Part shown: piece by piece, positions 1,863-27,684 of the stretch | Layout: each line of letters begins with the position of its first letter | Numbering within the stretch: the stretch's first letter is position 1 | DNA from: Streptomyces sp. TG1A-8 | GTDB lineage: Bacteria; Actinomycetota; Actinomycetes; Streptomycetales; Streptomycetaceae | DNA length: 64,000 nt | Assembly (NCBI RefSeq): GCF_030499535.1 | Contig: NZ_JASTLB010000004.1 | Location: forward strand, 62,001-126,000 | Reading direction: 5' to 3' | Position numbers and translations under genes: made by a program | Notes under the pieces: generated by a model | Database searches by the model: none | What the model was told of the DNA's origin: nothing | The model's input: only the letters and a program-made list of their open reading frames with translations

Positions 1863-4800
1863 ATGGGGAACGAGGAAAAGCTTCGCGGCTATCTGAAGAG
1901 GGTAACCGCGGACCTACAACGCACCCGCCGACAGCTCAGGAAGCTTCAGCAGGACGAGCGCGAGCCTGTCGCCATCGTCGCGATGGCCTGCCGCTATCCC
2001 GGCGGGATCGCGTCGCCGGAGGATCTGTGGGACCTGGTGGTACGCGGCGAGGACGTCATCTCGGATTTCCCGGTCAACCGCGGCTGGGACACCGACGCGC
2101 TGTACGATCCCGACCCCGAGGCGGTCGGCAGGACCTACACCCGGCGCGGCGGATTTCTACACGACGCCGACCTGTTCGACGCGGCGCACTTCGGCATGAA
2201 CCCGCGCGAGGCCACCGCCGCCGATCCGCAGCAGCGCGTGTTGCTCGAAATCTGCTGGGAGGTGCTGGAACGCGCAGGGATCGGCGTCAAGGAGGTCAAA
2301 GGCAGCGACACGGGCACGTTCGTGGGCGTCATGTACGACGACTACGGTTCCCGGCTGCACACCGTGCCCGCCGAATACGAGGGGTACGTCGGCAGTGGCA
2401 GCGCCCCGAGCGTCGCCTCCGGGCGCATCGCCTATACCTTCGGGTTCCAAGGGCCCGCCGTCACCGTCGACACCGCCTGCTCGTCCTCACTGGTGGCCCT
2501 GCACATGGCCGTGGAGTCGCTGCGCCGGCACGAATGCTCCCTGGCCCTCGCCGGCGGGGTCACCGTCATGGCGACCCCCCGCACCTTCGTGGAGTTCAGC
2601 AGACAGCGCGGCTTGGCGCCGGACGGCCGGTGCAAGCCGTTCTCCGCCGATGCCGACGGCACCGGATGGTCGGAGGGCGCCGGGATCCTCCTGCTGGAGC
2701 GGCTCTCCGACGCCGTCCGCGCCGGCCACCCCGTCCTCGCGGTGGTCTCGGGGGCGGCGGTCAACCAGGACGGCGCGAGCAGCCGCCTCACCGCCCCGCA
2801 CGGACCCTCCCAGCAGCGGGTCATACGGCAGGCGCTCCAGGCGGCCCGGCTCGACCCAGCGGATATCGACGTAGTGGAGGCGCACGGCACGGGCACCGCC
2901 CTCGGCGATCCCATCGAGGTGCAGGCTCTCCAGTCCGTCTATGGCGCCGGGCGCGCCGCGGGGCGACCGCTGTGGCTGGGCGCCGTGAAGTCCAACCTCG
3001 GCCACACCCAGGCCGCCGCCGGTGCCGCCGGGGTGATCAAGACGGTGATGGCGATGCGGCGGCACACCCTGGCCCGCACCCTGCGCGTGGAACGGCCCTT
3101 GACCAGCGTGGACTGGGCGTCCGGCGGGGTGTCCCTGCTGACCGAGAACCAGTCGTGGACTACCGACGGGGCCCCGCGCCGGGCGGCGGTCTCCTCGTTC
3201 GGCATCAGCGGCACCAACGCCCACGTGATCCTGGAGGAATACGTCCCTGCGGCGGACGACTTGGCACAAGACATCGTTCCCCCGTCCGCCGCGGAGAGCG
3301 TTGTCATACCGCCCTCCGGTGCCGCGACCGCACCGGCTGGTGTGCTGCCGCTGCTGGTCTCCGCCCGCGGCAGTGACGCGCTCCGGGACCTGGCGGGCCG
3401 GCTGCTGCCCCTGCTCGACGGCGCCGACGCCCCGCGGGCGGCCGGTCTGGCCTGTGCGCTGGCCACTACCCGCTCGCAGTTCGAGCACCGGGCCGTGGTG
3501 CTGGGCGCGGACGTCCCGGACCTCACCCGCGCCCTGACCGCCCTGGCCCAGGGGAAGGAGGGCCCCGGACTGGTGCGGGCGGTGGCCGAGAGCGGGCGCC
3601 GTACTGTCTTCGTCTTCCCTGGACAGGGCTCGCAGTGGGCAGGCATGGCCGGTGAACTGGCTGCCCGCAGCGAGGTGTTCACGGCATCGCTGCGCCGCTG
3701 CGCCGACGCGCTGCGCCCCTACATCGACTGGGACCCGCTGGCCGTGGCCCGCGGCGAGGCCGGCGCGCCGTCCCTGGACCGGGTCGACGTGGTACAGCCC
3801 ATGCTGTTCGCGGTCATGGTGTCGCTCGCCGAGCTGTGGCGGACCTACGGGGTGCGGCCCGCCGCTGTGATCGGCCACAGTCAGGGCGAGATCGCCGCGG
3901 CCTGTGTCGCGGGCGCGCTCAGCCTCGACGACGCCGCCCGCGTGGTCGCCCTGCGCTCCCGCGCACTCGCCGGGCTGTCCGGCACGGGCGGCATGATGTC
4001 CGTCGCACTGCCCGCACCGGAGGTGACCCCGCTGCTGGCCCGCTGGCAGGGCCGTGTCGCGGTCGCGGCCGTCAACGGCCCCCGGTCGACGGTCGTCTCG
4101 GGCGACCGGACCGCGCTGGAGGAACTGCGTGCAGCGTGCGACGGCGACGGAGTACGGGCCCGGATGATCCCGGTCGACTACGCCTCCCACTCCCCCCATG
4201 TGGACGTGCTGCGCGAGGAACTGGCCGATGCGCTCTCCGGACTGCGACCGCGTCCCGCGGACACCGTGTTCTGTTCCACCGTCACCGGCGAACCGATCGA
4301 CACCGGCGAACTCGACGCCGCGTACTGGTTCCGCAACCTGCGGCGCCCCGTGCAGCTGGAGCGCGCGGTGTACACGCTGCTCGACCGCGGCTACGACTGC
4401 TTCGTCGAGATCAGCCCCCATCCAGTGCTCACCGTCGGCCTCCAGGAGGCGATCGAGGAGCACGACACGCAGGCCGTGGTCCTGGAGTCGCTGCGCCGCG
4501 ACGACGGCGGCCCGCGCCGTTTCCTCGCCTCCCTGGCCCAGGCGCACGTCCAGGGCGTCGACGTGGACTGGACGCCGGCGCTGCCCAGCCCCGATGCCCC
4601 GCGCGTCGAGCTGCCGCTCTACCCCTTCCAGCGGCGGCGGCACTGGATCGAGGCCGTCGAGCCGGTGGCGGGAGCGGACCGGCTCGGCCTGACCGACGCC
4701 GGGCACGGGCTGCTCGGCGCTGCGGTCCGGCTCGCCGACAGCGGCGACCTGCTGCTCACGGGTTCCCTGGGACTGGAGTCGCACCCCTGGCTCGCCGACC

Positions 4801-19497: not shown

Positions 19498-22400
19498 ATG
19501 ACCGCCGAGGAAGCGACTCCCTCGAACGAACAACTTGTGGACTATCTGCGGCGCGCTACGGCCGAGCTCCGTACGGCGCGCCGGCAGCTGAACGAACTGC
19601 GCGAGCGGGAGCACGAGCCCATCGCCATCGTGGGCACGGCCTGCGCCTTCCCCGGTGGGGTGCGCTCCCCGCAGGAGCTGTGGGAGCTGGTGGCCGCAGG
19701 CGGCGATGCCGTCGGCGGCTTCCCCGACGACCGGGGCTGGGACCTGGAGAACCTGTACGACCCCGATCCGGAGGCGCTTGGCAAGTGCTCCAGCAAGGGA
19801 GGCGGTTTCCTGGCCGAAGCCGCCCACTTCGACGCGGAGTTCTTCGGGATGGCGCCCCGCGAGGCGCTGACCGTCGACCCCCAGCAGCGGCTGCTGCTGG
19901 AATGCGCGTGGGAGGCGCTCGAACGCGCCGGGATCGACCCGCGCACCCTGCGCGGCGAGCCCGTCGGCACGTACGTCGGCGTCATGTACAACGACTACGC
20001 CTCCCGCCTCCAGCCGGCTCCCGCAGGCTACGAGGGCTTCCTCGGCAACGGCAGTGCCCCAAGCGTGGCGTCCGGGCGGCTCGCCTACACCTTCGGTTTC
20101 GAAGGCCCCGCTGTCACGGTCGACACCGCCTGCTCCTCCTCCCTGGTGACGCTGCACCTGGCGGCCCAGGCCCTGCGCCGGGGGGAATGCACGCTTGCGC
20201 TCGCCGGAGGCGTGACGGTGATGTCCACGCCGGGCCCCTTCATCGAGTTCAGCCGACAGCGCGGCCTGGCCCCGGACGGCAGGTGCAAGGCGTTCTCCGC
20301 GCAGGCCGACGGTACCGGCTGGGGCGAGGGCGTGGGCCTGCTGCTGGTCGAGCGGCTGAGCGACGCACGCCGCCACGGGCACCCCGTGCTCGCCGTGGTG
20401 CGCGGTACCGCGATCAACCAGGACGGCGCGAGCAGCGGCCTGACAGCCCCCAACGGCCCCTCCCAGGAGCGGGTCATCCGACGGGCCCTCGCGGACGCCG
20501 GTCTGAGCCCGCGGGAGGTGGACGCGGTCGAGGCGCACGGCACCGGGACGAGGCTGGGCGACCCGATCGAGGCGCAGGCCATCATGGCGGTCTACGGTCA
20601 GGACCGCGACGGCGAACTCCCCGTGTACATGGGAACCTTGAAGTCCAATATCGGCCATTCCCAGGCCGCCGCCGGTGTGGGCGGTGTCATCAAGATGGTG
20701 CTGGCCATGCGCAACGGCCTGCTGCCCAGGACCCTGCATGCTGAGGACCCCAGCCCGCACATCGACTGGTCGGCGGGTGCTGTCCGGCTGCTCACCGAGC
20801 CCGTGCCCTGGCCGGCCACGGGTCGGCCGCGCCGCGCCGGAGTTTCCTCCTTCGGCGTCAGCGGCACCAACGCCCACGTCATCGTGGAACAGGTCCCGCA
20901 GGAAGAGCCGGAGCACACCAGTGAACCGATGCTCACCAGCGGACCCGAGCGGACCGGTCGCGACACGTCCGCGCTCGCCTGGCCCCTGTCCGCGAAGACC
21001 CCGACAGCCCTGCGCGCGCAGGCGGCCCGCCTGCGCCGCCATCTGTTGGACCACCCGGACACGGACCTCACCGACCTGGCGTACTCGCTGGCCGGGCACC
21101 GCTCCCTGCTGACACAGCGAGGTGTCGTTGTCGCCGAGGACCGCCAAGAGCTGCTGCACGGACTCGACCTGCTGGCCGAGGGCGGGCTCGGCACGGGGGT
21201 GCTGCGTGGCGGCGGCGCCGCACAGGGCGGGCTCGCCCTGCTGTTCGCGGGGCAGGGCGCCCAACGGCCGGGCATGGGCCGCGAGCTGAGCCGGGCCTTC
21301 CCCGCCTTCGCGGAGGAACTGCGGGCGGTCTGCGCGCACTTCAACCCACACCTGGACCAGCCGCTGCGCGAGGTGCTGTGGGCGGAACCGGGCACGGCCA
21401 CAGCCGCGCTGCTGGACCGGACCGAGTACACCCAGCCCGCGCTGTTCGCCCTGGAGGTGGCGCAATACCGGTTGCTTCGGCGGTTCGGTGTCACGCCCGA
21501 CGCCGTCGTCGGCCACTCGATCGGAGAGCTGGTCGCGGCCCATGTGGCGGGCGTGTGGTCGCTGGCGGACACAGCGGCACTCGTCGCGGCCCGTGGGCGG
21601 CTGATGCAGGCCCTGCCGTGCGACAACGGCGCCATGCTTGCGGTGCGCGCCACTGAGGCGGACATCCGGCCCCTGCTCGTCGGCCGGGAGGACCGCGTCT
21701 CGATCGCGGCTGTGAACGGCCCCGAGTCCACCGTGGTCTCGGGGGACGCAGACGTCGTCGCCGAGATCGAGTCCTGGGCCGTCGCGCACGGTCGGCGTGT
21801 CAAGCGGCTGCGGACCAGCCATGCGTTCCACTCGCCGCACATGGAAGCGATACTGGACGACTTCCTGAGGGTGGCCGAGCAGCTCGACTACCAACGTCCC
21901 ACCGTACCGGTGGTCTCCAACCTGACCGGCCGGATCGCTGCCGAGAAGGACCTCACGGACCCTGCCTACTGGGTGCGCCATGTGCGGGAGCCGGTGCGGT
22001 TCGCCGACGGCGTGCTCGAACTGGCGGCGGACGGCGTGCGCGGTTTCCTCGAACTCGGCCCGGACACCGTGCTGTCCTCGATAGTGCCCGAGTGCCTGTC
22101 CGGCCACGAGGCCGCCCGCACCGCCCGGGCCGTCCCCGTGGCGCGCCGCGACCGGCCCGAACCGGTCTCCTTCCTCACCGCCCTGGGCGACCTCCACGCC
22201 CAGGGAAGGACCGTCAATTGGAGCCCGCTCTTCGACGAACGGCGTCCGAGGTTCCTCACGGCACTACCGACGTACGCCTTCCAGCGGCGCCGGTACTGGC
22301 TGGAGCCCGACCAGCCAGCGGCGAGGACGGGGGGACGGCGGCTGCGGTCAAAGTGGTGGAAACCGAGGAGCACCCCCCGCAGGAGACGCCGGGCCAGGAG

Positions 22401-22667
22401 ATCGCCGCTCTGTCCGGCTCCGAACGCCTCGCCGCACTCATACGGATCGTCGCGGAGGCCGCGGCGGACACCCTCGGCCACGAGGGCCCCGAACCGCTTG
22501 ACGGCGACGCCGAGCTGCTCGACCTGGGCATCACCTCGCTCATGGCCGTGGAGCTGCGCACGCGCCTGGGAGAGGCCTTGGCGCTGGACCTGCCACCCAC
22601 GCTGGTCTATGACCACCCTCGTATCGAGGACATGGCGCGTTTCCTGGACGAGGAGCTGAACCGGTGA
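19498..22667 (+). CDS. Type I PKS terminal module (KS-AT-ACP), frameshifted before ACP
   Basis: The reading frame from ATG 19498 (GAGAGG at 19485-19490) encodes a docking helix, KS with TACSSS (about 212) and a malonyl-type AT with GHSIG and HAFHS. After the AT end motif FQRRRYW it degenerates into an Arg-rich tail that stops at 22659. A perfect ACP ([15 protein letters not shown], Thr replacing Asp before the active Ser) continues in the -1 frame to 22667. The frames meet at a run of six G (22329-22334); one extra G would fuse them. There is no KR, DH or ER, so the last unit stays a beta-keto group, and no thioesterase domain, so release must be by another route. The frameshift could be real, a slippage site or a sequencing error. 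The ACP stop overlaps the thioesterase start (GTGA). Confidence 0.9.
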
Positions 22668-23449
22668 GCCTGCCGAACGACAGCTGGCTGCGGTGCTTCC
22701 ACACCGTGCCGGACCCGGTGGCGCGCCTGGTGTGCTGCCCGCACGCGGGCGGTTCCGCGAGCACGTTCTTCCCGCTCTCCAGGGAACTGGCCGACCGGTC
22801 ACGGGTTGAGGTGGTCGCCGTCCAGTACCCGGGCCGCCAGGACCGGCGTGAGGCGCCCATGGAGCTGGGCATCCGGGCGATGGCGGCGCGGATCGCCGAG
22901 GAGCTGTCCGCATGGGCCGACCGCCCGCTGTCGGTCTTCGGCCACAGCATGGGAGCCACGGTCGGCTACGAACTGGCGCGGGTACTGAAGGCGACCGCCT
23001 CGCCCGGGCCGGACCAGGTGATCGTCTCCGGTCAGCGTTCACCCGAGCTGCAGAGCAGCAGACCGGTGGCCGAGCTGGACGACGACGCGCTGGTGCGCGA
23101 ACTGGCGCTGCTCGGCGGGACGAGCCCCGAACTGCTCGACGACAGCGATGTCCTGCAGATGTTCCTTCCGCCGCTGCGCGCGGACTACGCCGCGCTGCGC
23201 GCCTACCGCCACCGCCCTGAACCCCGGCTGTCGTGCCCGGTGACGGCGCTGGTCGGTGCGTCGGACCCCAAGGTGACGGTCGAGGAGGCCGCCGGCTGGT
23301 CGGACGTCACGCACGGACCCTTCGACCTGCGGATCTTCGAGGGCGGGCACTTCTACCTGGACACGCGGCGCGAGGAGTTCACCGACACGGTCACCGGCCT
23401 GCTGGCCTCCCGACCACTGCACCAGCCGAAACCGACACCGGCGCACTGA
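22664..23449 (+). CDS. Type II (discrete) thioesterase of the PKS cluster
   Basis: Protein of 261 residues, the usual size for TEII alpha/beta hydrolases that clear stalled or misprimed acyl chains from carrier proteins. The N-terminal [12 protein letters not shown] oxyanion region, the nucleophile in FGHSMGA (about residue 94), the acid in VGASDP and the His in EGGHFYL form the catalytic triad. The GTG start overlaps the preceding ACP stop by four bases, so it is translationally coupled to the PKS. Because the last PKS module has no TE domain, this enzyme might also take part in release, but its family normally edits rather than cyclises. It resembles the RifR/TylO-type proteins by motif only. 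Confidence 0.92.
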
Positions 23450-23486
23450 CCACGACCTCGATCACGACGAACGGATCACCTCCATC

Positions 23487-24155
23487 ATGGCCACTCACAC
23501 CCACCAAAGCCCCGAACTGCTCGCCTACGCACGGGAGATCTCCCTCAGGGACGACCCGGTGCTCGCCGACCTCCGCGAGCTGAACGCCCAGCTGCCCGGT
23601 GGCCCGTCCCTCCAGGTGATGGCCGAGGAAGGCCAGCTGCTGTCCTTGCTGGTGCGGCTGACGGACGCGGCCCGCGTCCTGGAGATCGGTACCTTCACTG
23701 GGTACAGCACCCTGTGTATGGCTCGCGCGCTGTCTCCCGGAGGGCAGGTCGTGACCTGCGAACTCAACCCTAAATGGATCGAGATAGCGGCCTCGTACTG
23801 GGACCGGGCCGGGGTCTCCGACCGGATCGACGCCCGGGTCGGAGACGCGCATGACACCCTGGCGGGGCTCCACGAGGAGCACGGGGAAGGCGGCTTCGAC
23901 CTCGCGTTCGTCGACGCGGACAAGGCCCACTACCCCGAGTACTACGAGACCTGCCTGCACCTGGTGCGCCCGGGTGGTCTGATTGTCCTCGACAACACCC
24001 TGTTCTTCGGCCGGGTCGCCGACCCGGCCGCCACCGACCCCGACACCTGTGCCGTGCGCGATCTGAACAAGCTGCTGCGGGACGACGAGCGTGTGGAACT
24101 CAGCCTGCTGGTCATGGCCGATGGCATCACGCTGGTCCGCAAGAAGAGTGCCTGA
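23487..24155 (+). CDS. SAM-dependent O-methyltransferase, CCoAOMT-like family
   Basis: Protein of 222 residues. SAM-binding motif I is [16 protein letters not shown] (about residues 67-82), followed by CELNPKW and the metal-site motif [14 protein letters not shown] (about 138-151) with [10 protein letters not shown], all characteristic of the divalent-cation-dependent CCoAOMT-like family that includes MdmC and FkbG of polyketide clusters. It lies 37 bp after the thioesterase on the same strand and is probably the last gene of the operon. Likely roles are methylation of a hydroxyl or enol of the polyketide or of an extender precursor; the methoxymalonyl partner genes are not in this window. 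No strong ribosome-binding site is seen before ATG 23487. Confidence 0.88.
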
Positions 24156-24527: not shown

Positions 24528-24599
24528 GTCTGACCACCCAACCACTACGGCCCGCCCCGCAGTGTGCGGGGGCGGGCCGTAGTGGTTGGGTGGTCAGAC
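24528..24599. terminator. Very long near-perfect hairpin overlapping the parB stop
   Basis: Arms 24528-24561 and 24565-24599 (34 and 35 nt, one bulged base) around a three-base loop. The right arm includes the parB stop codon (24594-24596). It is GC-rich and lies between two convergent units (methyltransferase on plus, parB on minus), so a bidirectional terminator is the likeliest role. The stem is far longer than a usual intrinsic terminator and has no clear T tract. Confidence 0.75.
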
Positions 24600-25898
24600 C
24601 GGTTGTTCCTCCTGCTGGGACAGCTCACGAAGCAGCGCTTTGTACTCGTCGGGATGTTGTTCACGCATGATTCCCAACCACAGCCGAACGCCTTCAGCGA
24701 AGACCGACGGCTCCATCTTCAGGTGCAGGTGATTGACGACGTAGAAGGCATCGTCATACGGCAGCTGACGTGGCTGCCCTTGACCGCCCAGTCCATCCGA
24801 CCCGCCTTCGCTGGAGCTCTCCACTGCATCGGCAGGGCCAGGAGCAGAGAGTTCGGCATCTTTCTGCGTCGGCTGACGCTGAGCTGGCGGCCTGGCCGCA
24901 CTGTGCACCGCCTCACCGACTGGTTTGCCGTCCGCGGACAACAAAGTCGACGCCGGGTGCGAGTGCGCCGACGACGTGGTTTCCTTGTTGTCCGCGGACA
25001 ACAAGCTGCGGTTCACGTTGCCTGACAGAGGAGCGTCCGGCAGAGCGCTTGCCGCGAGCGATTGCTGATCTTCCGCCTTGTTGTCCGCGGACAACAAGGC
25101 AGTGTCCCCAGCGGAGCGCAGCGTCTGCAGCTGCCGACGTTCCTCGGCTTTGGCCAAGGCTGCGGCTTCCTTCGTTGCTTTTAGATAATCCAGTAGATTG
25201 GCTGCTCCCAGCCCGGGGTTCTCCTTGGAGTAGCGAGCCAACATCCGCCCGTCGCGCTCGGCAAGCGTGCCTGCGCTCAACATGGCCTGCAGCTCCGCCG
25301 GCAACTCCAGCAGCACCAGCTGGTTGGTCACCCATGAGCGGTCCTTGCCGAGTTGCTCGGCTGCCCGGGTCCGGGCCCCACGCTCCGAGGTTTCCGCGCA
25401 CACGGCTACGAGCTGCTCCACACCACGAGTACGCTCGATCACGTCAAAGTCCTCCCGCTCAAGGTTTTCCTTCAGCAGGTGGTTGATGAATTCCTCACGG
25501 CTTGAGGCCAGATCGTCACGGACAACGAAGTCCAGCGCCTCCAAGCCGACGTGGACAGCGCTGTGGAAACGTCGCTCACCGTTGATCAGAACGTGGGCGG
25601 CGTTGTCGATGCGGTCCTCGTGGTCGGGCCACAGTGCAAGGTAGGCGGTTCGGGTCACAGCGACACATGCAGCCAGCTGAGCGCGACGCAGTTCCTCGCC
25701 GAAGCGCGTCTTTTCCTCGTCGGTGCCGAAGTTGCGGCGCGGGTTGAGGAGGGTAGGGGAGACCTCATCCAGCTGCAACCGAACCAACTCGTAGACGGGA
25801 ACGTCTCCCTGGGTCACTGCCTTTGCGGGTCCGCGAGCACTGCGGCCGCGTCGTTCGGTGAAAGAAGACCCGGCTCCCAGCCGGTCGGCGACGCTCAT
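24594..25898 (-). CDS. parB: ParB-family partition protein with parS-like DNA repeats in its gene
   Basis: Protein of 434 residues. The N-terminal ParB domain carries NPRRNFG and the GERRFHSAVH box (CTP/DNA-binding region), then a helix-turn-helix (EQLGKDRSWVTNQL, about 185-200). The C-terminal third is low-complexity with three repeats of LLSAD(N/G)K; at the DNA level these are a CCGCGG-centred palindrome that may be the cognate parS site. The end (YDDAFYVVNHLHLKMEPSVF) is a globular tail. The start ATG overlaps the parA stop (ATGA), so parAB form one operon. This arrangement is typical of low-copy plasmid segregation loci and differs from chromosomal Streptomyces parB, whose parS is GTTTCACGTGAAAC. 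Confidence 0.92.
   Translation of the reverse strand: MSVADRLGAGSSFTERRGRSARGPAKAVTQGDVPVYELVRLQLDEVSPTLLNPRRNFGTDEEKTRFGEELRRAQLAACVAVTRTAYLALWPDHEDRIDNAAHVLINGERRFHSAVHVGLEALDFVVRDDLASSREEFINHLLKENLEREDFDVIERTRGVEQLVAVCAETSERGARTRAAEQLGKDRSWVTNQLVLLELPAELQAMLSAGTLAERDGRMLARYSKENPGLGAANLLDYLKATKEAAALAKAEERRQLQTLRSAGDTALLSADNKAEDQQSLAASALPDAPLSGNVNRSLLSADNKETTSSAHSHPASTLLSADGKPVGEAVHSAARPPAQRQPTQKDAELSAPGPADAVESSSEGGSDGLGGQGQPRQLPYDDAFYVVNHLHLKMEPSVFAEGVRLWLGIMREQHPDEYKALLRELSQQEEQPV
24924..25100. repeat. Three palindromic parS-like sites inside parB
   Basis: Three copies of a palindrome with core TTGTTGTCCGCGGACAACAA. Copy 2 (24984-25005) is perfect over 22 bp and copy 3 (25075-25100) over 26 bp. 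Copy 1 (24924-24945) has two mismatched pairs. Centres are 60 and 93 bp apart. All sit in phase with the parB codons and encode LLSAD(N/G)K. Repetition at DNA and protein level in a disordered region suggests a selected DNA site; the partition context points to parS or an autoregulatory operator. Function is inferred. Confidence 0.7.
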
Positions 25899-26848
25899 CC
25901 GCTGATCCTCCGTGCGATCGTCCGCATTGCTTCCACCTGCTCGCAGTAAGGGGCATGGGCTAGCAGGGCTGCCTTCACCCGTGCCGCTTCTCGTTGGTCC
26001 TTCAGCTCTGGCACGACAGCCAGGACCGGGGGCTCACCGATCTTCCGCCACTCCTCCAGAGAGGATGTCGCCACATAGCCCTTGCGGCTGTCGTACATGT
26101 TGACGACGAAACCGAGCTGACTGATGGCGACTTCCATGTCCTCGATCAGGTCCGCGATCTGCTCTTCGAGCATGTCGTAGGCGTCGGCGGACGAGTCTTC
26201 GGACAGAACAGGGATGACGATGCCCGAGGCGCCGTCCTCTTCGCCCTCCCGGGTGCGGCAGTAGTAGATGGCCGTGTCCATGCTGTAGCCGAGGCTTGGC
26301 GGGCAGTCGACGACGATGAAGTCGAAATCGTGCTCCAGCGGCTCCAAGGCCTTCTCCAGCGCCGTCTCCTTGATCCGCACGAAGCGGCTCGTGGCGAGCT
26401 TGGCATCGAGGAGGAAGGCGTCCTTGCAGGCCCGGAGCAGCCAGAGATGATCCTCGAAGTCCCCGCCCCTTATCGGCACCAGCAGGTCCGTGAGCTCACC
26501 GTCCTTGACCTCACCGAGCATGTGCTTGGCAAGGCTGGGGGCATCAATTTCGATGAGCGGGTGACCGAGCTGCTTGGTCAGGTGACCCTGCGGGTCGAAG
26601 TCGATCAGCAGAGTGCGATGACCCGACTCGGCGAGAGCCTGGGCGACGCCGGCAGACACCGAGGTCTTACTGACACCGCCCTTCTGATTACCGAAAATGA
26701 TGCGGCGCGCCCCGGTGACCCGCTGGGGCTTGGGCCGCGGTGAAGGATGTTCGTCGAGCCACAGCCGGATCGACTGAGCAATACCCTGGTTGTAAGAGAT
26801 CCCGCTGGACTTGCAGTCCCGCTTCAGCTTGTCGTACGGCACTGTCAC
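25895..26848 (-). CDS. parA: ParA-family partition ATPase, 5' end replaced by an IS6 element
   Basis: A P-loop ATPase with a deviant Walker A (GNQKGGVSKTS), Walker A' LLIDFDPQGH and the Walker B-like FIVVDCPPSLG. Together with ParB it would position plasmid copies at division. The first native residues visible are YDKLKRDCKSSG; everything upstream of base 26838 belongs to the inverted repeat of an IS6-family element. The reading frame stays open into the IS; a GTG inside the IS end (26848) could serve as a start (317 residues), as could one at 26956. No native start, ribosome-binding site or promoter survives, so expression would depend on the IS. The stop overlaps the parB start. Confidence 0.85.
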   Translation of the reverse strand: MTVPYDKLKRDCKSSGISYNQGIAQSIRLWLDEHPSPRPKPQRVTGARRIIFGNQKGGVSKTSVSAGVAQALAESGHRTLLIDFDPQGHLTKQLGHPLIEIDAPSLAKHMLGEVKDGELTDLLVPIRGGDFEDHLWLLRACKDAFLLDAKLATSRFVRIKETALEKALEPLEHDFDFIVVDCPPSLGYSMDTAIYYCRTREGEEDGASGIVIPVLSEDSSADAYDMLEEQIADLIEDMEVAISQLGFVVNMYDSRKGYVATSSLEEWRKIGEPPVLAVVPELKDQREAARVKAALLAHAPYCEQVEAMRTIARRISG

Positions 26849-27684
26849 GTTGACTGACCGGGTGGGATGATCTTCTGGTTGGTCATGCCGGGAGGGGTCG
26901 TCCGTGGACAGCGCGCCGCCGTCGTACAAGGGGCACCGGTACCCGGTGGAGATCATCGCGCACTGCGTGTGGCTGTACTTCCGCTTCCCGCTCAGCTTTC
27001 GCGGGGTCGGGGAACTGATGCTGGAGCGCGGCGTGCTCGTCTCCTATGAGACGGTCCGCCGCTGGTGCGCCAAGTTCGGGCAGACCTACGCCAACGGCCT
27101 GCGTCGCCGGCTGCCCGCCCCGGGGGCAAATGGCACCTGGATGAGGTCTTCATGAAGATCAACGCAGAGCGGAAGTACCTGTGGCGGGCCGTGGACGCCG
27201 ACGGCACCGTCTTGGACATCCTCGTACAGAGCCGACGGGACACCGCTGCGGCCCGGCGCTTCTTCCGCAGGCTGCTGAAGAAGACCCATACGGTGCCCAG
27301 GGTGGCCGTCACCGACAAGCTGCGCTCCTGCAGCGCGGCCCACCGCGAGGTCATGCCCTCCGTTGAGCACCCCTCGCACAAGGGCCTGAACAACCGGGCG
27401 GAGAACAGTCATCAGCCGACAAGGCAGCGTGAACGCGCGATGAAAGGCTTCCGCAGTACCGGTGGGGCCCGACGGTTCCTGGCTGCCTTCAGCGGCATCT
27501 CACCGCACTTCCAACCCCACCGCCACCTGATGACCGCTCCCGGCTACCGAGCTGAGACGACCCTCCGCTTTGCAATCTGGGACCAGGCCACCGGCGCCGC
27601 CGGGACCTGAACACCGCTTCGAAACCCGGTCCCGCCCCATACCTCACACGCTGCCAGAAAACCCCTCAATAACGTGACAGTGCC
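26838..27684 (+). mobile_element. IS6-family element, copy 1 (transposase frameshifted)
   Basis: Bounded by the inverted repeats GGCACTGTCACGTT (26838-26851) and AACGTGACAGTGCC (27671-27684); the first eight bases match the typical IS6 family end. It is 847 bp and carries one transposase gene, which has lost one C relative to copy 2. No 8-bp target duplication is seen (flanks end in gtcgtac and begin with agtccgag), so its flanks have been recombined since insertion. It lies inside the 5' end of parA. Confidence 0.92.
26904..27610 (+). pseudogene. IS6-family transposase, copy 1, one-base frameshift
   Basis: DDE transposase. The frame from ATG 26904 is intact to about 27115 (…GLRRRLP), then shifts; the rest (GGKWHLDEVFMKI onward) is in another frame and stops at 27610. 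Comparison with the copy at 31645-32352 shows a single missing C (ctgcccgcc against ctgccccgcc), so this copy is inactive unless the base is a sequencing error. Catalytic residues HLDE, VTD and NRAE are all still encoded. Confidence 0.9.

Follow-up and report, generated by a model that had tools for sequence, protein, structure and literature searches.

In bacterial chromosomes, ParB recognizes a parS site whose core is GTTTCACGTGAAAC. Bacillus subtilis carries a parS inside spo0J, a chromosomal precedent for parS in parB; this is a conserved site of the chromosomal type, and we know of no array of such sites there. In KorB-O_B of RK2, a ParB-family protein is paired with a palindromic operator/centromere. 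The closest described arrangements are found on plasmids. For SCP1 of Streptomyces coelicolor, ChIP-seq and BLI are reported to map two partition systems, each with a parB that contains an internal cognate parS (PMC13245405, 2026), and for SCP2, ChIP-seq is reported to locate an 18-bp parS inside parT, the coding sequence of its own binder (PMC12260392, 2025). Here we describe a parB gene in which several copies of a different palindrome are written into the reading frame, and compare it with its relatives and with these systems.

A parB gene with three internal palindromes

The window, meaning the whole stretch of 64,000 nucleotides that was analysed, is part of contig C4 in a genome of 7.66 Mb and 4 contigs. 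The features of its parB region are as follows.

24594..25898, minus strand: parB, 434 aa, with a putative, divergent CTPase-type N domain, an HTH, a disordered linker and C-terminal helices
25317..25349, minus strand: ParB recognition-helix stretch, residues 184-194, GKDRSWVTNQL
24771..25091, minus strand: ParB linker, residues 270-376, pLDDT below 50; it contains most of palindrome 1 and the whole of palindromes 2 and 3
25075..25100, no strand: palindrome 1, 26 bp, perfect, encoding LLSADNK, predicted parS
24984..25005, no strand: palindrome 2, 22 bp, perfect, encoding LLSADNK, predicted parS
24924..24945, no strand: palindrome 3, 22 bp, 2 of 11 pairs mismatched, encoding LLSADGK, decayed predicted parS
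24528..24599, no strand: inverted repeat with perfect 31-bp arms and a 10-nt loop, overlapping the parB stop codon

A preliminary description had reported three CCGCGG-centred palindromes in parB, two of them perfect, and this was confirmed: the perfect ones span 26 bp and 22 bp, and the third, also 22 bp long, has 2 of its 11 pairs broken, its counterpart being perfect in relatives L005 and L007. All three lie in one parB reading frame, as had been stated, and yield LLSADNK, LLSADNK and LLSADGK over residues ~267-326. The placement of this repeat in a disordered part of ParB likewise agrees with the AlphaFold model, in which disorder is predicted by a pLDDT below 50 over residues 270-376. The model was built from 23 sequences and reached a mean pLDDT of 62.8; the HTH region was modelled with confidence, helices were placed at the C terminus (384-431), and values were low around residues 107-130 of the N domain. 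Membership of the ParB family was evident from the HTH domain (HTH_ParB PF17762, E 3e-11) and from PDB chains of Spo0J, ParB and Noc that matched the ParB profile A1 (best 1.5e-16). A CTP-binding N domain may be present: NGERRF in the window's ParB aligned with the GERR motif of solved ParBs, but the score for TIGR00180 was 49.9, under the cut-off of 58.45. The best matches of this ParB, among plasmids and genomes alike, were from Streptomyces. The hairpin at 24528-24599 is probably a terminator. Beside the par locus, window positions 19498-24155 hold genes for a ketosynthase-acyltransferase polyketide synthase, a thioesterase and an O-methyltransferase.

Conservation of the palindromes as DNA and their occurrence

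At up to 3 mismatches, TTGTCCGCGGACAA matched 11 places in the 64-kb window against 2.85 expected, and none of 100 shuffles reached 11; when the window's parB was shuffled among synonymous codons, two perfect cores were reached in 0 of 5000 runs. A chance origin of the palindromes was rejected on these two kinds of shuffle. The same held across homologous genes: in the 50 parB genes compared (of 54; L009, L055, L056 and L057 were left out) there were 109 perfect TTGTCCGCGGACAA cores altogether, whereas 200 synonymous-codon shuffles gave 1.6 on average and never more than 6. Of the 112 LSAD peptides encoded in these 50 genes, 108 lay on a perfect core, 3 on a core with 1 mismatch and only one, the third palindrome of the window, on a core with 2. 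Homologues that keep LLSADNK on non-palindromic DNA were sought among these peptides, and none had more than 2 mismatches, a result that leaves the parS reading standing. Codon choice was equally strict: when LSAD sites were chosen by peptide alone (in 48 of the 50 genes), their Leu codon was TTG in 112 of 112 cases, whereas elsewhere in these genes TTG made up 9.5% of the Leu codons. Palindrome copies outside genes were identical in sequence to those within, and in L036 one perfect copy sat off-frame in an otherwise normal parB. The proposal in the preliminary description that selection acts on the DNA and not on the protein is supported by the codon fixation, the synonymous shuffles and the same-sequence copies outside genes. 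Taken together, the comparative evidence strongly supports both DNA-level selection and the identity of the palindromes as predicted parS.

A search of all 7.66 Mb of the genome placed the perfect 16-mer GTTGTCCGCGGACAAC only at the window's two perfect sites, the third site being among the genome-wide matches at 2 mismatches. The complete records of 14 related plasmids were searched (of 15 plasmid loci, L019 was left out for its different palindrome), and each contained the perfect core, giving 70 copies, 38 of them in parB. All copies lay within 12 kb in 13 of the 14 plasmids, and plasmid W13 had 11 copies spread across 39 kb. Among 295 genomes of the genus, the window's own included, the perfect 16-mer was found in 18 and a close ParB (E 1e-40 or better) in 26, with both present in 15 (Fisher P = 9e-16); the remaining 11 ParB genomes had a variant palindrome at the ParB locus, and a close ParB was carried by all 14 genomes with at least two copies of the 16-mer. 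No convincing ParB was detected at the site in G054, G081 and G253, which have a single 16-mer each. In a wider search, the ParB was found in 7 of 396 genomes across the phylum at E 1e-15. Phage carriers were sought with the 20-mer TTGTTGTCCGCGGACAACAA, which had 0 exact matches in viral_contigs.

In G088, one of the 14 genomes with at least two copies, the two 16-mers lie away from its ParB, next to another ParA-like gene and the gene of a 256-aa protein. At this locus (L124, G088 C3:44000-50000; positions 2642-2742 and 2798-4494), the two GTTGTCCGCGGACAAC sites are directly downstream of the ParA-like and 256-aa genes. The 256-aa protein had no match in Pfam, NCBIfam or PDB, and is possibly another centromere-binding protein that uses GTTGTCCGCGGACAAC.

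Placement of the sites and co-variation with the recognition helix

Site placement was assessed over the typed loci, 91 of 96 (L009, L101, L052, L121 and L107 were left out). At least one in-gene site was present in 85 of them and at least two in 68; a single parB could hold as many as 6 copies, arrayed in its 3' half, and only one in-gene site lay before residue 230. Altogether, 214 sites fell in parB and 161 outside, corresponding to densities of 1.94 versus 0.34 per kb. Of 203 even-type in-gene sites, 199 were in one frame; the other four belonged to L036 (1), L083 (2), where the stretch looks frameshifted, and L051 (1), where the site follows a run of N. In six typed loci the sites lay solely outside parB (L088, L103, L105, L108, L116 and L117); no site was found in L121, and L052 had only near matches with 1-2 mismatches. 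Allowing up to 2 mismatches, a copy was located just upstream of parA in 20 of 49 loci (~70 bp before the parA start codon in L005-L008) and within 1 kb downstream of parB in 18 of 49, L009, with its split parB, being counted in both totals. The preliminary description had depicted a compact, self-contained unit; many relatives have further copies upstream of parA or downstream of parB, and the unit is therefore often not confined to parB. L053-L057, being partial or divergent matches, were left out of the later locus set.

The palindrome itself varies among ParB lineages. TTTGTCCGCGGACAAA, GTTGACCGCGGTCAAC and TTTACCGCGGTAAA were observed both in parB and outside, GTTGTACGCGTACAAC and CTTAACCGCGGTTAAG only outside parB, and near-palindromes at L030, L051 and L120, while odd-length sites of other lineages read ATTACG-N-CGTAAT, TTAACG-N-CGTTAA and TTAACC-N-GGTTAA. 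Because both palindrome arms change, the peptide LSADN becomes LTAVN or FTAV(N/K). The first of the odd-length sites is found in parB and upstream of parA in L123, on a 387-kb plasmid of S. anthocyanicus. An exact-sequence literature search for TTTACCGCGGTAAA (subscription papers, figures and supplements being outside its scope) returned one Aspergillus paper.

Several loci depart from the common layout. L116, from a Rhodococcus ruber plasmid, has ten TTTACCGCGGTAAA copies upstream of parAB (88-1417) and none in parB, which is the conventional intergenic layout for this same type of site. L088 has seven GTTGTACGCGTACAAC copies outside parB, and its recognition helix differs from that of the window only by N192H. 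In L009 (pSV2, 3001-4202), parB reads as split: translation from the usual start ends after 153 aa, the annotation places a second CDS from 3366 onward, and the palindromes are kept.

Changes in the sites were matched by changes in the recognition helix. In the 82 loci with even-type sites, the base being taken as the commonest letter over both arms (tied in L099) and site types having been assigned after the data were seen, residue 187 was K or R in 60 and base 8 was G in exactly those 60 (non-G in 22 of 22 others); residue 188 was S in 66 and base 4 was T in exactly those 66 (A4 in 16 of 16 others). To control for shared descent, the 241 usable ParB columns were ranked over the 82 loci, which form 37 clusters at 85% identity, with clusters down-weighted. 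For the outermost base 8 the top column was R187, with a normalised information of 0.75 (0.55 for the runner-up), and for base 4 it was S188, at 0.78 (D186 followed at 0.70). For bases 5 and 9 the top column was F124, outside the helix; variation at base 3, and likewise at base 6, was confined to a single locus, and no clean rule linked residue 192 to base 5 across the 82 loci. With the helix columns removed, a tree was built from 94 of 96 rows (L009, with split parB, and L101, partial, were left out; 83 rows were different and several were near-copies); on it the site labels needed 16 changes versus 42.3 for shuffled labels. Independent pairs on supported branches agreed in 4 of 4 cases for residue 187 and in 1 of 1 for residue 188, numbers too few for P < 0.05. 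Profile alignment placed R187 on the arginine (R173) of the GKSR motif in Caulobacter ParB, which is reported to hydrogen-bond guanine 1 of parS in the crystal structure (PMC7383237). Such co-change of site and helix, as read from aligned sequences, is what a ParB-parS pair would predict. In the code that we propose, residue 187 would pair R or K with G8, P with T8 and A with C8, and residue 188 would pair S with T4 and A or G with A4.

With a probability of roughly 0.86, we consider the palindromes to be parS sites, at which the ParB that this gene itself encodes would load onto DNA. Cognate predicted parS sites within parB would on this account characterize the 85 of 91 typed loci, reading by ParB being suggested by the co-variation. 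From the DNA-level conservation, the site placement, the frame lock and the co-variation of site and helix, all of which are observed, we infer how binding, spreading and partition would proceed. A ParB dimer would contact each half of GTTGTCCGCGGACAAC through a single recognition helix, R187 lying at the outermost G and S188 at or near base 4; ParB would close as a CTP clamp and then spread, and ParA would move the ParB-covered plasmid. The sites are written in the DNA for the predicted disordered linker, and the frame may have been chosen as one that yields the tolerable peptide LLSADNK. With the sites inside parB in such a frame, gene and centromere would be inherited together. More tentatively, and at slightly worse than even odds, we extend this to a large family of actinobacterial plasmid ParBs, where the disordered linker would be dictated in part by the DNA, its repeats being the shadow of a parS array, reader and sites would be inherited and switched together, the residue code would predict parS, and the in-gene array would be the main centromere.

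Other explanations of the palindromes were weighed against the same evidence. If LLSADNK had been selected as protein, for example as a short binding motif, the palindrome would be a by-product, and the single frame of nearly all even-type in-gene sites would be accounted for. This is very improbable in view of the invariant TTG codon, the synonymous shuffles and the identical intergenic copies, and because other lineages changed on both arms to a different peptide and L036 tolerates an off-frame copy; a protein-level repeat was rejected on the codons, the intergenic copies and the change on both arms. Being short, repeated and sometimes scattered, as in W13, the palindrome also resembles a REP-like or mobile element inserted in parB by accident. 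We find this hardly credible for a 16-mer whose perfect form has no copy in 277 of the 295 genomes of the genus, nor anywhere else in the genome that contains the window, and which is tied to this ParB and changes with its helix.

An operator role deserves somewhat more weight, although it too is unlikely. The palindromes would then serve ParB for autoregulation or silencing only, with the centromere elsewhere, and the copies just upstream of parA in 20 of the 49 loci suit an operator. However, arrays in the 3' half of parB would be an odd operator position, no other repeated 14-bp palindrome was found in 54 loci apart from a G/C run in L054, and in SCP1 and SCP2 the in-gene sites act as loading sites. 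A chromosomal-type parS was rejected as well: as the preliminary description had noted, the core is unlike the chromosomal one, the window sites being GTTGTCCGCGGACAAC and not GTTTCACGTGAAAC, and two copies of the GTTTCACGTGAAAC core were found in L078, where the window's genome has its chromosomal ParB match.

The window's own copy and its relation to described systems

Upstream of parB, the window contains two further features.

25895..26956, minus strand: parA ORF, homologous to related ParA only below position 26836
26904..27610, plus strand: transposase region with an IS240-type DDE domain (ORFs 26904-27155 and 27065-27610), adjoining the parA break

The parA gene adjoins parB and is recognised as a ParA-family Walker ATPase (AAA_31, E 1.8e-23). 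Residues 73-385 of the relatives' ParA align to window positions 26836-25898, and the window has neither residues 1-72 nor the upstream site; the first ~42 codons of its parA ORF match a sequence repeated at many places in the genome. With the first 72 residues and the upstream site gone, the confinement of sites to parB looks like damage here, and an array beside a 5'-truncated parA makes the activity of the window's copy uncertain. Contig C4 has two other parAB loci, near 299-301 kb (L077) and 488-490 kb (L076). At the first, ATTACG-N-CGTAAT occurs 4 times, its only copies in the genome, all within C4:299155-301444 and one inside parB; at the second, TTAACG-N-CGTTAA occurs once, inside parB, and the pattern is found once more in the genome, on C1. 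One replicon may hold three partition loci with three different palindromes, and the window's par locus may be a partial relic.

It is possible, if on balance doubtful, that the window's array is indeed such a relic, belonging to an operon that lost the promoter region, the upstream site and the first 72 residues of ParA beside a transposase, while the other two parAB pairs carry out partition. The start of ParA homology at residue 73, the genome-wide repetition of the first ~42 residues of the parA ORF, the two mismatches in the third palindrome and the two additional parAB pairs on C4, each with a different palindrome inside parB, all speak for it. Against it stand a full-length ParB with two perfect sites and a recognisable ParA ATPase domain, and L006 and L008 also have a single decayed in-gene copy, yet retain the upstream site. 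This alternative concerns the window's copy only and is compatible with parS identity at the level of the family.

If parS identity is correct, dozens of uncharacterised Streptomyces plasmids acquire a predicted centromere, and parS would be predictable from ParB sequence via the code at residues 187 and 188. The recently published internal-parS arrangement would then include arrays locked to one frame throughout a ParB family, the protein repeat would be explained as a consequence of DNA selection, and the lineages would provide a natural series of ParB/parS specificity switches addressable at single residues.

The preliminary description had called the arrangement unusual and undescribed. 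Internal parS sites are published for parB1 and parB2 of SCP1 and for parT of SCP2, so that the window adds to a described arrangement a frame-locked array of a different site; for the core TTGTCCGCGGACAA itself, an exact-sequence search (subscription papers, figures and supplements being outside its scope) returned 0 papers. KorB-O_B is alike in pairing a ParB-family protein with a palindromic site, but the Pfam KorB score of the window's ParB was 21.4 bits, under the cut-off of 22.3, and the site differs. The chromosomal pair, as described for Caulobacter ParB, resembles the locus in the GTT...AAC outer bases, the helix GK(S/D)RS..N and the contact of R173 (aligned with R187 here) with the outermost G, and differs in its 14-bp core with a CACGTG centre, the window's sites having 16 bp and a CCGCGG centre. 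SCP2 ParT-parS is alike in that the site lies inside the gene of its own binder; ParT is, however, described as CTP-independent and lacking an apparent CTPase domain, with a single internal site noted, unlike the array of the window's ParB. As reported, parABS1 and parABS2 of SCP1 share with the present locus a plasmid HTH-ParB, identical inverted repeats around the operon and a copy inside parB, and we count the strict site specificity of these two systems on one plasmid as a further likeness. The SCP1 report gives three sites per system around the operon, whereas here up to 6 in-gene copies produce a protein repeat, and its sites of 13 bp and 15-19 bp are set apart, by reported length, from the even palindrome of at least 16 bp. 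Beyond these systems, the present analysis adds an array of several copies locked to one frame, shows how it extends through one ParB family, and provides the sequences of the sites together with a proposed code between residues and bases.
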